Shown here: piece by piece, positions 3,059 through 38,842 of the stretch
How positions within the stretch are numbered: the first letter of the stretch is position 1
Layout of the letters: every line of letters starts with the position of its first letter
From: Clostridia bacterium
Lineage (GTDB): Bacteria > Bacillota > Clostridia > Christensenellales > Borkfalkiaceae
Direction: 5' to 3'
Assembly (NCBI GenBank): GCA_017399035.1
Contig: JAFQEM010000012.1
Location: forward strand, 1-48,061
Length of the DNA: 48,061 nucleotides
Made by a program: the position numbers and the translations under genes
The notes under the pieces: generated by a model
What the model was told of the DNA's origin: nothing
Seen by the model: only the letters and a program-made list of their open reading frames with translations
Database searches by the model: none

Positions 3059-3065
3059 AATAGCC

Positions 3066-3157
3066 GTAGAGTAGCAAAGATGCGTAAAGTGTTGCAAAAT
3101 GGGATGTCGTTTGCAAACGAAAGGGGTTTCCCTGCGGTGTCTTTGCGCGTCCGCTAT
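3066..3157 (+). promoter_or_regulatory. Tetrahydrofolate (THF) riboswitch aptamer
   Basis: The leader matches the THF riboswitch class: AGAGTAG at the 5' side, GCGTAAAGTG, the conserved GGGATGTCG, CGAA, TGCGGTG, and CGTCCGCT at the 3' side. Stems are plain: GTAG/CTAT (3066-3069 with 3154-3157), GCAAAGA/TCTTTGC (3074-3080 with 3140-3146) and TTGCAAA/TTTGCAA (3092-3098 with 3110-3116) flanking GGGATGTCG. The next gene is a folate-type ECF S-component, the expected target. The aptamer senses reduced folates. Confidence 0.92.
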
Positions 3158-3210
3158 TATTAAAAGCGCGCTAAAAGTGTAAAGTTTTAAACGCGCCATA
3201 ATTTTAACGG

Positions 3211-5570: not shown

Positions 5571-7088
5571 TTACGCTTTTTTTAGGCGCGGTGTGTGGGA
5601 TTTAATTTTTCCTTTAATAAAGTTTACGCTAATAAGCCCAAAGCCTAAATATAATCCAAAATGGAAAACGCACATAATAATTGAACATATAATTAAGGTG
5701 AAAAATATTCCTAAATTTGCAATTATAAGTTTTTCAATCATAAACCCTATTATTGCAGTTGGTATACATAACAAAACTGAAATTAGGGTAAATTTAATAT
5801 ATTCGGGTTTTTGCGGGCAACATTTTCCAAGTAAAATCAAATTTAATACGGTGGTAATTCCGTAAATAAAAGTGTAACCTATAAGCAGAGAAAAAATTCC
5901 ACAAAATTTTGGCAATATTAAAACTGCAAGCAACATAAACGCTTCGCTTATTATGTAATAAATTAAGGTTTTATTCTCTTTGCCCATAGAATTTAGCATA
6001 CTAGTAGTTATTGCTGATAAACTCATAAATAACATCATAAATGCGCTTGCAGAAAGATAACTGCCACATTCGTGTCCGCCAAATACCGTTATGCCTATTT
6101 CTGAACCACAAACGGTGAACACGGGTATAAATATACAAGTTAAAAAAACTGTAAATTTTAACGCTTTTTCTATATCCATTTTAAGGCTATTATATTTTTT
6201 TCGATAATAGTTTTCAGATATTTCAGGCACTAAAACAAGAGTGAAAGAACTTATAAGAGAAGTGGGGGTACATAGTAAGGGTATTGCTTGCCCAACCGTT
6301 GCGCCAAACGCGCTCATTGCTTGTGAATTAGTATAGCCTGCGGATATAAGTCTTATAGGTAAAATTACCGATATAAGTGAGTTCGCAAGAGAATTTGCCG
6401 TACGCATTGCCGTTATAGGTATTGAAGATGAGAGCAACGGCTTAAATTCTGATTTTGGATTTTTAAGTTTATTTTTTCTTATAAAGAATACCGCAGTTGC
6501 AAGTGAAAAAGAAAATATATAAGATATAAGCACCGCAACGCCTGCTCTAAACGCGCCTTGATAGACGTCTGATGCAAAACTTATTAGTATTATACCGCTT
6601 ACAATCATGCAAATTTCTTCTAATAGTTCAATTATGCTGTAAGGCAAAAAATCTTTATTTCCCCAAAAAACCCCACGCAAAACTGCGTAAACGGAAGTGA
6701 AAATTAGCCCAGGCATAATTATTTTGAAAATGTTTACACAACGCTCGTCTGCAAACAAAAAATTTAAATTTTGCCCAAACAATATTGCTAAAATGCATAC
6801 AGGGATTGAAAGTAAAAGGGTTAAACATAACCCTGCGGTAATAATTTTATAAACGCGCGTTTGGTCGTTTTGCGCCTTATATTTAGTCATCAATCTAGAA
6901 ACGGTTATAGGCGTTCCAGAGCAACATATAGTAAATAAAAGCGCAAAAACCGACAATGCAACTTGATAAAGCCCTATACCTTCTGCGCCTATCGTGCGAG
7001 ATAGATATATTCTGTATAAAAAACCGAGAAACTTTTCGCTCAAAGAAAATACAGTTACTATTGCTACCGTTTTGAAAAAACTTCTCAA
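5571..7088 (-). CDS. SpoVB/MurJ-like polysaccharide flippase (MOP superfamily)
   Basis: A 505-residue polytopic membrane protein with about 14 hydrophobic segments. The opening FFKTVAIVTVFSLSEKFLGFLYRIYLSRTIGAEGIGLYQ (first helix and loop) and CCSGTPITVSRLM are the pattern of the SpoVB/YkvU/YtgP branch of oligosaccharide and lipid-linked precursor flippases. Such proteins move wall or spore cortex precursors across the membrane. The start is TTG at 7086-7088 with AAGGGG 6 nt upstream; no ATG fits. The gene is alone, so it cannot be assigned to sporulation from context. Confidence 0.85.
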   Translation of the reverse strand: MRSFFKTVAIVTVFSLSEKFLGFLYRIYLSRTIGAEGIGLYQVALSVFALLFTICCSGTPITVSRLMTKYKAQNDQTRVYKIITAGLCLTLLLSIPVCILAILFGQNLNFLFADERCVNIFKIIMPGLIFTSVYAVLRGVFWGNKDFLPYSIIELLEEICMIVSGIILISFASDVYQGAFRAGVAVLISYIFSFSLATAVFFIRKNKLKNPKSEFKPLLSSSIPITAMRTANSLANSLISVILPIRLISAGYTNSQAMSAFGATVGQAIPLLCTPTSLISSFTLVLVPEISENYYRKKYNSLKMDIEKALKFTVFLTCIFIPVFTVCGSEIGITVFGGHECGSYLSASAFMMLFMSLSAITTSMLNSMGKENKTLIYYIISEAFMLLAVLILPKFCGIFSLLIGYTFIYGITTVLNLILLGKCCPQKPEYIKFTLISVLLCIPTAIIGFMIEKLIIANLGIFFTLIICSIIMCVFHFGLYLGFGLISVNFIKGKIKSHTPRLKKA

Positions 7089-36915: not shown

Positions 36916-37980
36916 ATGGCTAGTTACGATTTAGAAACTTATATAAAACCTATTTGGCAAGGCGACACGGTCTATTATGAAACGGTGCTTTTTGTTGGTG
37001 AAGAAGATTGCGCACCGCTTTTGTACCCGATAGAGCAAGTAGTTGGCGTTTATAATTACGGTTTGACCGAAGAATATCAACTTGGCAAAGATTTTGAAAT
37101 TATTGACGGAAAAATTAAAAGAATTAAGGGCGGAAAAACCCCTTATTGCCCTGTTGACGACTATTATTTAGATAAGCAAGCACAATACGCAATAGAGATA
37201 GTAAATAACCGTGAAGTTGCGCCTGCTGGTAAAAAATATTTTAACTTTGGCGAAAAAGATAGTTATTCAAAATATCAAATTGCAGTAACTTACCGCCACT
37301 CTGCGCAAAATAAAACGCTTATTCCGCAAGGTAAAAGTCAAAGGTTTTCTTGCTTTTTAAATAAGTTGAAAGAGCAAAAGAGTGCAAGCGTAATATTTTA
37401 TGGCGATAGCATAACCACGGGTTGCAATTCAAGTGGAACGCCTATGGGCGGAATGGTTGAGCCGTTTGCAGAAAGTTTTCCCGTTATGGTTCATAAAAAA
37501 TTGCAAAAAGAATTTGATGCAGAGATTGAATATGCAAACACCGCCGTTGGTGGTTGGGCAACCGATAGGGGACTAGATGCGTTTGACGAACGTGTTTTAG
37601 ATAAAGAATATGACCTTTTAGTTTTGGGTTTTGGTATGAACGACGGTGCAACGCCACTAGAAACTTATTTAGAGCGAACGGAAAAGATGGTGCTTAAATT
37701 TAGAGAGCGCAATCCACAAGGTCAAGTTGTGTTGCTTTCAACAACTTATCCAAACACCGAAAGCAACTGGGTAAGAAACCAACCGCTATTTATAAACGAA
37801 CTTGTTAAGTTAGAGAAAAAATATTCTTTTGTTGGCGTTGCCGATATGACAAATATGCACTATAATCTTTTAGAAACAGGCAAAAGATATAGAGATATGA
37901 CGGGCAACAACGTAAACCACCCCAACGATTTTTTGGCAAGAATATACGCGCAAGTTGTGCTAAAAACCTTGTTAGGTTAA
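36916..37980 (+). CDS. SGNH/GDSL-type hydrolase
   Basis: A 354-residue protein with an N-terminal beta-rich domain (about 1-150) and a C-terminal SGNH esterase fold: block I FYGDSITTGCN (Ser nucleophile), block II Gly in GGWATDRG, block III LGFGMNDGATP (Asn), block V NNVNHPNDFLARIYAQV (Asp and His). No signal peptide, so it acts inside the cell. It is likely a carbohydrate or lipid acyl esterase. Two-gene unit with the HAD phosphatase. Confidence 0.88.
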   Translation: MASYDLETYIKPIWQGDTVYYETVLFVGEEDCAPLLYPIEQVVGVYNYGLTEEYQLGKDFEIIDGKIKRIKGGKTPYCPVDDYYLDKQAQYAIEIVNNREVAPAGKKYFNFGEKDSYSKYQIAVTYRHSAQNKTLIPQGKSQRFSCFLNKLKEQKSASVIFYGDSITTGCNSSGTPMGGMVEPFAESFPVMVHKKLQKEFDAEIEYANTAVGGWATDRGLDAFDERVLDKEYDLLVLGFGMNDGATPLETYLERTEKMVLKFRERNPQGQVVLLSTTYPNTESNWVRNQPLFINELVKLEKKYSFVGVADMTNMHYNLLETGKRYRDMTGNNVNHPNDFLARIYAQVVLKTLLG

Positions 37981-38002
37981 AATTTTTAATGTAAAAACTA
38001 TA

Positions 38003-38034
38003 AAAACTCGGCTATTTTCAGGTCGAGTTTTTTT
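38003..38034 (+). terminator. Terminator after the SGNH gene
   Basis: AAAACTCG with CGAGTTTT, loop of about 13 nt, T-run of seven. Confidence 0.8.
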
Positions 38035-38050
38035 ATATTTTAAAATCCGC

Positions 38051-38079
38051 TTGATAAAAATTTTTTTAAGTGATATACT
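38051..38079 (+). promoter_or_regulatory. Promoter of small RNA 1
   Basis: TTGATA (38051-38056), 17 bp, TATACT (38074-38079). The start about 7 nt on, G38086, is the first base of the RNA's closing stem. The same boxes and spacing recur at 38333-38361. Confidence 0.78.
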
Positions 38080-38085
38080 AAATAT

Positions 38086-38291
38086 GCCAAACTAACTAAA
38101 TAATGCATATTAAAAAGGTATGCTTTTTTAAAAGTGTATAATTATTTGTACATTTCTCATAACAGTTTAAAGACTGTAAAAAGTGCAGATTTCAAATGCT
38201 GTTATGGGTTTACCTTTATGCATAATGTTAGTTTGGCGACTACTGAGGTTTGCATTTTTTGGTGCGTTGACTTCGGTTGGCGCACTTTTTT
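38086..38291 (+). ncRNA. Structured small RNA 1 of a tandem pair (6S-like architecture)
   Basis: About 205 nt from a predicted start at G38086 to a terminator. The 5' end GCCAAACTAAC (38086-38096) pairs perfectly with GTTAGTTTGGC (38227-38237); the stem continues with an ATGCATA pairing and AAAGGTA/TACCTTT. Inside, CATAACAG (38158-38165) pairs with CTGTTATG (38199-38206), leaving a large asymmetric opening on the 5' side. The end is GTGCGTTGAC, a TTCG tetraloop, GTTGGCGCAC, then six T (38262-38291). No protein frame with a ribosome binding site is present. The rod shape with an internal bubble and paired ends resembles 6S RNA, which binds RNA polymerase holoenzyme; this identity is not proven. 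Confidence 0.75.
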
Positions 38292-38332
38292 ATTTTAAAA
38301 GCATTGAAATAAATCGCTTTTTGAAAAAGTGC

Positions 38333-38361
38333 TTGATAAAATTTTTATTAAGTGATATACT
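38333..38361 (+). promoter_or_regulatory. Promoter of small RNA 2
   Basis: TTGATA (38333-38338), 17 bp, TATACT (38356-38361). Start predicted at G38368, the first base of its closing stem. Confidence 0.78.
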
Positions 38362-38367
38362 AAATAT

Positions 38368-38567
38368 GTCACATTAGTTTAAGAAATACAATTTACAGTT
38401 AGCAGGGGTATATTTTAAATCTTTGTTGACCATTATTACTATTGAAATAAGCAGAAATGCAAATTCCATTAAGTAATTATGGTTCAACTGTAATTTTTTA
38501 AACTTGTGTGACAACAAACGGAGTTTCGCATTTTGCGGTGCGTTGACTTCGGTTGGCGCACTTTTTT
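38368..38567 (+). ncRNA. Structured small RNA 2 of a tandem pair (6S-like architecture)
   Basis: About 200 nt. The ends pair over 13 of 15 positions (38368-38382 with 38498-38512, GTCACA at the base), then TTACAGTT (38393-38400) with AACTGTAA (38486-38493). An inner stem joins 38429-38440 with 38472-38483 (11 of 12 pairs). Between the stems 28 nt are unpaired on the 5' side and 2 nt on the 3' side, like a 6S central bulge. The terminator (38538-38567) is the same C(UUCG)G hairpin as in RNA 1. The body has little sequence in common with RNA 1, yet the fold is alike. Read-through would enter the gene at 38588. Confidence 0.75.
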
Positions 38568-38587
38568 ATTTTAAAAGGAGATATTTT

Positions 38588-38842
38588 ATGAAAAAGAAAC
38601 ATACCGACGAAGAGATTATTCAAATGGTTTCTGAAATTACAAAGGGTGCAAAAATTCCCGATTTAAGAAAAGCAGAACTTACTTTGCTAGTTATGATTGC
38701 AGAACAAACAATGATGGATGCAGAAGTTAAATTTTTAAATTCTTTAACAGACGAGCAAAAAGAGTTATACGAAGATTATATGTTATGCACCAAATGTTAT
38801 CACGATACTTATTATGAAAGAATTACTAAATATAAACGATAA
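38588..38842 (+). CDS. Small helical protein of unknown function downstream of the RNA pair
   Basis: An 84-residue, mostly helical charged protein: MKKKHTDEEIIQMVSEITK, then IPDLRKAELTLLVMIAEQ, EVKFLNSLTDEQKELYEDY and CTKCYHDTYYERITKYKR. A CTKC pair is near the C-terminus. I do not recognise a family. AAGGAG lies 7 nt before the ATG, immediately after the RNA 2 terminator, so expression may need terminator read-through. Upstream in-frame starts (38504) only translate the terminator and are rejected. Confidence 0.7.
   Translation: MKKKHTDEEIIQMVSEITKGAKIPDLRKAELTLLVMIAEQTMMDAEVKFLNSLTDEQKELYEDYMLCTKCYHDTYYERITKYKR

Follow-up and report, generated by a model that had tools for sequence, protein, structure and literature searches.

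A family of structured leader RNAs in gut Clostridia, probably riboswitch-like transcription attenuators

In type III toxin-antitoxin systems, pseudoknotted RNA repeats come together with a terminator and a toxin gene, and put-, EAR- and LoaP-like RNAs make RNA polymerase ignore a terminator. A study of 2017 reportedly listed 224 candidate RNAs, from which the family described below is set apart through Rfam 15 only. This family resembles transcription-terminating riboswitches, orphan candidates included, in that its members are 5′ leaders with a folded body, covarying stems and conserved unpaired bases, in that terminator and antiterminator share a strand, and in that complete units stand in tandem before one gene, as described in PMC9481103. 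It differs from them in that the terminator loop and its partner in the leader are conserved in sequence across the collected copies, as if they travelled as one cassette, and in that the genes behind the units share no pathway. For the tandem arrangement, the closest precedent that we found is that of complete riboswitches before one ORF (PMC9481103). These pseudo-cooperative tandem riboswitches likewise consist of two complete units and one gene, whereas here each unit has its own promoter and, in the metagenome assembly RGIG4022, the upstream units each have a truncated copy of the same gene's start behind them. Finally, the raiA-motif RNA (ModT) is, according to PMC11706538, a structured RNA of Bacillota, as are the units described here, but these have no Rfam match to its model. 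In the following, we describe the units and their relatives, and propose that they are probably an undescribed riboswitch-like transcription attenuator, a complete 5′ leader with two mutually exclusive folds.

Two tandem units and the gene behind them

The window is a stretch of 48,061 nucleotides from a Clostridia bacterium (contig JAFQEM010000012.1). As the sequence-only reading had proposed, and as a scan for promoters and terminators confirmed, it holds two promoter-RNA-terminator units in tandem on the + strand, composed as follows:

38051..38079, +: promoter of leader 1, TTGATA-17-TATACT, extended −10 (TG before the −10)
38086..38291, +: leader RNA 1, predicted +1 G through end of T-run
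38086..38096, +: P1 5′ strand of leader 1, partner 38227-38237
38182..38193, +: putative pseudoknot strand in the P4 loop of leader 1, AGTGCAGATTTC; complementary to 38245-38256 at 12 of 12 positions
38227..38237, +: P1 3′ strand of leader 1
38240..38256, +: shared switching strand of leader 1, of which 38245-38256 would form the pseudoknot with the P4 loop
38240-38250 with 38269-38279, +: predicted antiterminator of leader 1, on the loop side of the terminator
38261..38291, +: intrinsic terminator of leader 1 (scan site 38261-38286)
38333..38361, +: promoter of leader 2, TTGATA-17-TATACT, TG before the −10
38368..38567, +: leader RNA 2 (fold z −5.57)
38368..38379, +: P1 5′ strand of leader 2, partner 38501-38512, imperfect
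38456..38467, +: putative pseudoknot strand in the P4 loop of leader 2, AATGCAAATTCC
38501..38512, +: P1 3′ strand of leader 2
38515..38531, +: shared switching strand of leader 2; pseudoknot recognised by eye, with one bulged C
38515-38525 with 38545-38555, +: predicted antiterminator of leader 2
38537..38567, +: intrinsic terminator of leader 2 (scan site 38537-38562)
38588..38842, +: gene behind the leaders, encoding an 84-aa protein with no assigned function

Between 37000 and 39500, on both strands, the scan returned 13 promoter-like sites (shuffles: 7.0 ± 2.5) and six terminator-like sites (shuffles: 2.5 ± 1.8). About 40 nt lie between the T-run of the first unit and the second promoter. 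The end-to-end folds that had been noted from the sequence were recovered by calculation, with −65.5 kcal/mol for RNA 1 (z −6.46) and −57.5 kcal/mol for RNA 2 (z −5.57), values reached by 0 of 200 shuffles in either case; the stretches folded were shifted by one base (38087-38292 and 38369-38568). Both closing stems are present, that of RNA 1 with 11 bp and that of RNA 2 interrupted, and the two bodies are indeed hardly alike: their identity of 58% is just over that of shuffles (mean 53%, maximum 57% of 60), compared with 85% for the promoters and 85% for the linker plus terminator. The earlier note had also considered that one unit might be a decayed copy; all elements are kept in both.

The gene behind had been missed in that reading. 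An AAGGAG and the ATG of the 84-aa ORF directly follow the second terminator, so placed that the start, preceded by a Shine-Dalgarno sequence, lies about 20 nt past the second T-run, and by the same rule of Shine-Dalgarno sequence plus start codon, the first unit has no such ORF behind it. The 84-aa protein has no Pfam match over cut-off; similar small proteins, as judged by eye, are encoded behind the same RNA at five further collected loci (L039, L052, L061, L062 and L170). Since two leaders stand ahead of one gene, a transcript begun at the first promoter would pass two attenuators, and one begun at the second would pass only one.

A covarying body and a strand with two partners

All family counts are based on 148 distinct units. 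Before the unit scan, 17 loci were excluded, namely L001-L008 from the first search of the own genome, four duplicate loci, two duplicate IMG/VR contigs and three IMG/VR contigs that were chance matches. From 169 HMM hits, 19 were then dropped (14 below 20 bits, four without a recognised 3′ strand and one without P1), and the removal of two identical units left 148, among which a few with a wrong or degenerate P1 are still counted (e.g. both L092 units, L022:438-599 and L143:202-390). The element labels P1 to P4 are our own.

P1, the closing stem, has 11 or more pairs, and its sequence is free to vary while pairing is kept. Covariation was scored in 129 non-redundant units, namely those left when near-duplicates were taken out of the 139 whose P1 end was recognised and that have at least nine of 12 pseudoknot pairs; this choice favours pairing, as does the use of the best-pairing window as loop strand in this test. 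The P1 score was 0.592 (shuffles: mean 0.136, maximum 0.160), with 99.2% of cells paired (shuffles: mean 76.3%, maximum 77.7%) and double changes in 11 of 11 pairs (shuffles: mean 7.3, maximum 10). P1 is followed by an internal loop with a conserved AAUA (24 sequences), by P2 and by the hairpins P3 and P4. P4 was found with 6–22 pairs in 136 of the 148 units (median 13 pairs, median loop 29 nt), and 85% of those 136 have P3 beside it. The arms of P4 are fully paired over 11 nt with their own partner in 90 of 125 cases, but with swapped partners in 9 of 621 and with shuffled ones in 0 of 125. For P2, the difference is weaker: all eight of eight pairs form in 90 of 122 combinations with the own partner, in 171 of 607 with a swapped one and in 41 of 122 with a shuffled one. 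The body energy of 40 of the 148 units has a mean z of −8.1. The covariation of P1 and the own-partner pairing of P4 bear out the earlier claim of selection on structure while sequence changes. A fixed geometry of the pseudoknot was considered and rejected; the correlation of P4 length with the P1-P2 column is −0.29, of the opposite sign.

The large loop of P4 holds a strand, typically AAUGCAAAUUCC, that is complementary to the strand right after P1, GGAGUUUGCGUU. At least 10 of 12 positions are paired in 137 of the 148 units, counted in the best-pairing window of the loop, which favours pairing; the shuffle control for this pairing preserved single-base, not dinucleotide, composition. With the loop strand anchored regardless of pairing, which succeeded for 105 of the 129 units, pseudoknot covariation was 0.161 (shuffles: mean 0.145, maximum 0.160). 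It lies at the edge of the shuffles because both strands are so conserved, and the pseudoknot therefore rests mainly on conserved complementarity.

The same 3′ strand has a second candidate partner. When the pseudoknot is left out of a thermodynamic calculation, it pairs downstream, i.e. with the spacer, the terminator and 12 nt beyond, at a mean probability above 0.4 in 105 of the 148 units. By inspection, the partner is the terminator loop together with the start of the 3′ arm, as in CWAUCGGAGUU with GACUUCGGUWG, and these bases also lie within the terminator stem. In an 8-bp window of this antiterminator, 139 of the 148 units form seven or eight pairs in their best register; covariation (0.212) and the paired fraction (0.932) are just over the maxima of 300 permutations (0.209 and 0.929), and the pairs with double changes, five of eight, lie within the permutations (mean 3.2, maximum 7). 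Extended to 11 pairs in 136 anchored units, 12 of the 148 not being anchorable on the loop motif, covariation (0.210) and the paired fraction (0.896) both exceed the maxima of 1000 permutations (0.189 and 0.882), in a window chosen after inspection of the alignment and in tests that ignore the shared ancestry of the units. For one pair, likewise chosen after inspection, linker T/A against terminator A/T gives 21/10 against 3/82 (Fisher p = 1e-12; p = 1.5e-10 in the non-redundant set), and another pair gives p = 6e-6.

Nineteen units have divergent strands, and in these the own partner gives a better fit than a swapped one (permutation p = 0.0004); 15 of the 19 beat the median swapped terminator, but only 11 do better than the median consensus terminator, and the best stretch sometimes falls outside the expected register. 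Judged by eye, some of them (L065 and L157) keep the complementarity of the P4 loop too, so that three segments change together. Folded alone, the terminator and antiterminator stretches have nearly the same mean energy (−15.5 and −15.6 kcal/mol, respectively). Moreover, the P4-loop strand has an exact 5-nt complement inside its own loop in 81 of the 148 units, and its pairing probability is above 0.4 in 129; with the loop paired to itself, the 3′ strand would therefore be free for the antiterminator.

Two further observations concern the region behind the terminator. GCAAAT, a part of the P4-loop strand, recurs within 30 nt after the terminator in only 8 of the 148 units (L060, L119, L123, L132, two in L143, L144 and L151) and is therefore not a general element. 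In both tandem units of L143, a second 3′ strand and a divergent terminator (TCGAAGCTATGTGTTTTT...) lie behind the first, as if the output parts were stacked.

Gene context, spread and tandem arrays

A −10 element lies 4–11 nt before P1 in 130 of the 148 units, with an extended TG in 120 of these, which probably places the RNA start at P1 or beside it. Downstream, a Shine-Dalgarno sequence with a start codon is found within 45 nt past the T-run in 98 of the 148 units and within 95 nt in 119, compared with 227 and 442, respectively, of 3000 random positions in the same loci; for the other 29 units, this rule finds no start within 95 nt. Same-strand orientation holds for the first ORF downstream in 132 of 143 cases and for the nearest one upstream in 53 of 84. 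Because start codons adjoin the terminator and the downstream ORFs lie on the same strand, the unit is, judged from sequence, a 5′ leader and not a free RNA.

The genes behind the leaders are heterogeneous. Pfam, PADLOC and PHROGs scans covered 102 of the 119 downstream proteins, the short, the near-duplicate and one very long protein being excluded. Among the best 25 of 53 Pfam families, BspA-type leucine-rich repeats are the most frequent (13 of 102), and fewer proteins carry zinc ribbons, InlB-like repeats, copper amine oxidase N-terminal domains, ricin lectins, SPFH, SLOG, Rho-N, GIY-YIG or a DNA methylase domain. A simple pattern classifies 24 of the 119 as lipoprotein-like, and 28 more have a hydrophobic N-terminus. 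Among the best 25 of 99 PHROGs, two families without a function match 13 and 11 of the 102 proteins, and the others one or two each. The downstream proteins thus have no common function or pathway, and therefore suggest no ligand. A role in defence was considered and dropped, as PADLOC returned eight models, each matching one or two of the 102 proteins. Several loci do resemble each other: similar small cysteine-rich proteins lie behind the leader in L087, L090, L095, L098, L124, L125 and L167, and look-alike small proteins in L013, L045, L049, L058 and L059. Rho_N is found in three of the 102 proteins, and the protein of L013 matches it weakly, below cut-off.

Across 41 genomes, a DNA search returned the promoter and the units' 3′ end repeatedly. 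We describe the spread of the family with R1, a covariance model of the 3′ part of the unit built from 76 sequences. At E ≤ 0.001, it has matches in 39 of the genus's 44 genomes; at the level of the order, it has them in 92 of 297, where the weakest (near 25 bits) may be chance terminators. At E ≤ 1e-7, it matches 85 of 391 genomes in a sample of the class, with up to 12 matches each among those listed, and a single one of 348 in a sample of the phylum, which is the window's own genome. The two richest genomes are the metagenome assemblies RGIG4022 and RGIG4040, with 15 and 21 matches at E ≤ 0.001 and about 14 copies each above 35 bits. A DNA pattern search of GTDB genomes found 29 stretches, 29 of 29 in metagenome assemblies of Clostridia, Clostridiales or Oscillospiraceae bacteria; for 20 of the 29, a gut source is named (deer, sheep, goat or water-buffalo). 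With a looser pattern, 3 of 15 IMG/VR stretches contain a unit (L105, L111 and L114, with the same displayed sequence), and the other 12 have a chance-level score or none. Two faecal records deposited as phage match the unit in part, and plasmids, searched with one unit, gave no match. In L105, the leader (5978-6181) lies within a record deposited as phage, and in the unverified phage record MT835503.1 (L179 474-531), it precedes an ORF that by eye resembles the EcoRI-like methylase of L065.

Besides the window, tandems without a full gene between the units are found in L022 (the first unit being degenerate), L076, L143, L154 and L156 (three units). An array of units comes from RGIG4022, in which two contigs (L081 and L086) hold five full units and one partial unit, each before the first codons of the same gene; a stop after 27 or 28 codons ends four of the ORFs behind them, the contig end truncates another, and the remaining one continues into the whole gene. 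This leader array spans L081 1-1730 and L086 1178-1851, and the last unit of L081 stands before the full gene of 151 aa. Within the array, the promoters are 78–100% identical, the 3′ parts 92–100% and the downstream 60 nt 87–100%, whereas the bodies are 61–73% identical, little above the median of 61% between random family members. L154 and L156 likewise have kept flanks and a divergent body, as in the window pair (85%, 85% and 58%). In L022 and L143, the promoter is not kept (41–42%), and the start of the first unit is degenerate or misplaced. Given near-identical flanks around divergent bodies, we conclude that the body turns over while the flanks stay.

The proposed switch and its alternatives

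At the gathering score, Rfam 15 matches only a THF riboswitch in the whole window and nothing at the two units; this aptamer (RF01831) lies at 3065-3158 and scores 75.2 bits. With a lowered threshold, up to E = 5, the region 37950-38620 yields weak matches only, and 6S RNA is not among them. In the loci of six relatives, a tRNA alone reaches a gathering score. An RNA family absent from Rfam 15, which the sequence-only reading had offered as one of two options, is thus what the searches indicate. In the open literature searched, including passages of PMC11109978, PMC8632094 and PMC9481103, we found no such motif. A twister-like ribozyme was rejected, as the twister-P3 match at 38155-38209 scores 24 bits, against a gathering score of 39.9, and does not recur in the six relatives' loci.

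The other option of that reading, a duplicated 6S RNA, drew on the size of about 200 nt, the long closing stem and the internal opening, which the units do share with 6S RNA. The model search, the position of the units as leaders and the presence of 6S loci elsewhere all contradict it. RF00013 has no match in the window at the gathering score, nor in 37950-38620 up to E = 5, and each unit, instead of being a free RNA, is a 5′ leader that brings a switching terminator of its own. Furthermore, RF00013 scores over its cut-off in 24 of 42 genomes tested, including 11 of 21 RNA-bearing ones, and in these 11, the true 6S RNA lies elsewhere, at no R1 match among the matches listed; in four members of the genus (69–79% complete), it found nothing. 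We thus assign next to no probability to a 6S origin: the structured RNA family is real, and it is not 6S.

What we propose instead is the attenuator. Its parts, their conservation, the gene behind and the covariation in P1, P4 and the antiterminator can be read from the sequences themselves. Two features of a riboswitch, a 5′ leader on the strand of its gene and a folded domain with compensatory changes (P1 and P4), are present, and a third, mutually exclusive terminator and antiterminator folds, appears to be present as well. Transcription would start at the first base of P1, and the RNA would fold into P1, the internal loop with AAUA, P2 and a junction with P3 and P4, the latter tipped by its large loop. 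In the off state, this loop would pair with the strand just 3′ of P1, forming the pseudoknot and leaving the terminator free to form. In the on state, the 3′ strand, released from the loop, would pair with the terminator loop and the start of its 3′ arm, and transcription would read through into the gene. Closure of the P4 loop on itself, as predicted for many units, would favour the on state, such that the two full states would be pseudoknot plus terminator (off) and closed loop plus antiterminator (on). We infer that the two folds exchange, that a ligand bound to the folded body decides between them and that the pseudoknot corresponds to the off state; the ligand is most likely a small molecule. 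Cyclic di-GMP was rejected as a ligand, because GGDEF domains are absent from 10 of the 21 RNA-bearing genomes and present in the other 11; those without include the window's own genome (69% complete) and the ones with 15 and 21 R1 matches.

The same attenuator might respond to a protein or to a trans-acting RNA instead of a small molecule. Heterogeneous genes behind the leader would fit such a global signal, and the loop and 3′ strands, near-identical in most copies, could also pair between molecules. However, the large conserved P1–P4 fold and the conserved bases of the internal loop exceed what a simple protein site needs, and we consider a trigger of this kind somewhat unlikely. For a LoaP-type factor in particular, the genomes offer little room: among the 21 RNA-bearing ones, 17 encode one NusG-domain protein, three none and a single one two, which argues against such a factor as a general trigger and led us to reject LoaP-type antitermination. 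A cis-acting processive antitermination RNA of the put, EAR or LoaP kind would also be a structured RNA before a terminator, often ahead of long genes for surface proteins, as observed here. Yet the terminator is itself conserved as part of the unit, with a loop complementary to a strand of the leader, which points to a local switch and makes processive antitermination very improbable.

The remaining alternatives concern what is made from the locus. With its own promoter, a start at the base of the closing stem and a strong terminator, a unit could yield a discrete RNA of about 200 nt, and most transcripts may indeed terminate there; one could thus imagine a stable small RNA acting in trans, its neighbour gene being incidental or expressed by leakage. 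Against this stand the closely spaced start codons and the same-strand ORFs reported above, and a covarying antiterminator would serve no purpose in such an RNA, so that we regard this as improbable. As an RNA antitoxin of a type III toxin-antitoxin system, the locus would show a similar order of promoter, tandem pseudoknotted RNA, terminator and gene. The units, however, are larger than the RNAs of those systems, branched leaders of about 200 nt with a separate promoter and terminator each, and the genes behind them are unrelated, vary from copy to copy and in part encode lipoprotein-like products (24 of 119); an antitoxin function is extremely improbable. The best 25 of 53 Pfam families in the 102 downstream proteins scanned do not include a ToxN-type toxin.

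For the family as a whole, a broader picture is conceivable, although we hold it to be speculative and rather unlikely. The promoter, sensor body, terminator and antiterminator might form a portable switch cassette that has spread in gut Clostridia to positions ahead of unrelated genes of surface, restriction and phage type, its sensor bodies being exchanged as blocks within tandem arrays, so that adjacent copies could differ in the signal sensed while having the same output part. If the attenuator proposed here is right, the units would represent an undescribed class of RNA gene switch in uncultured gut bacteria. As the genes behind them include surface, lipoprotein, restriction and phage genes, the trigger would be a signal tied to part of the outer surface and to mobile genes. 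Both competing folds are already specified by the sequence, which would make the function and the ligand of this switch accessible to direct tests.
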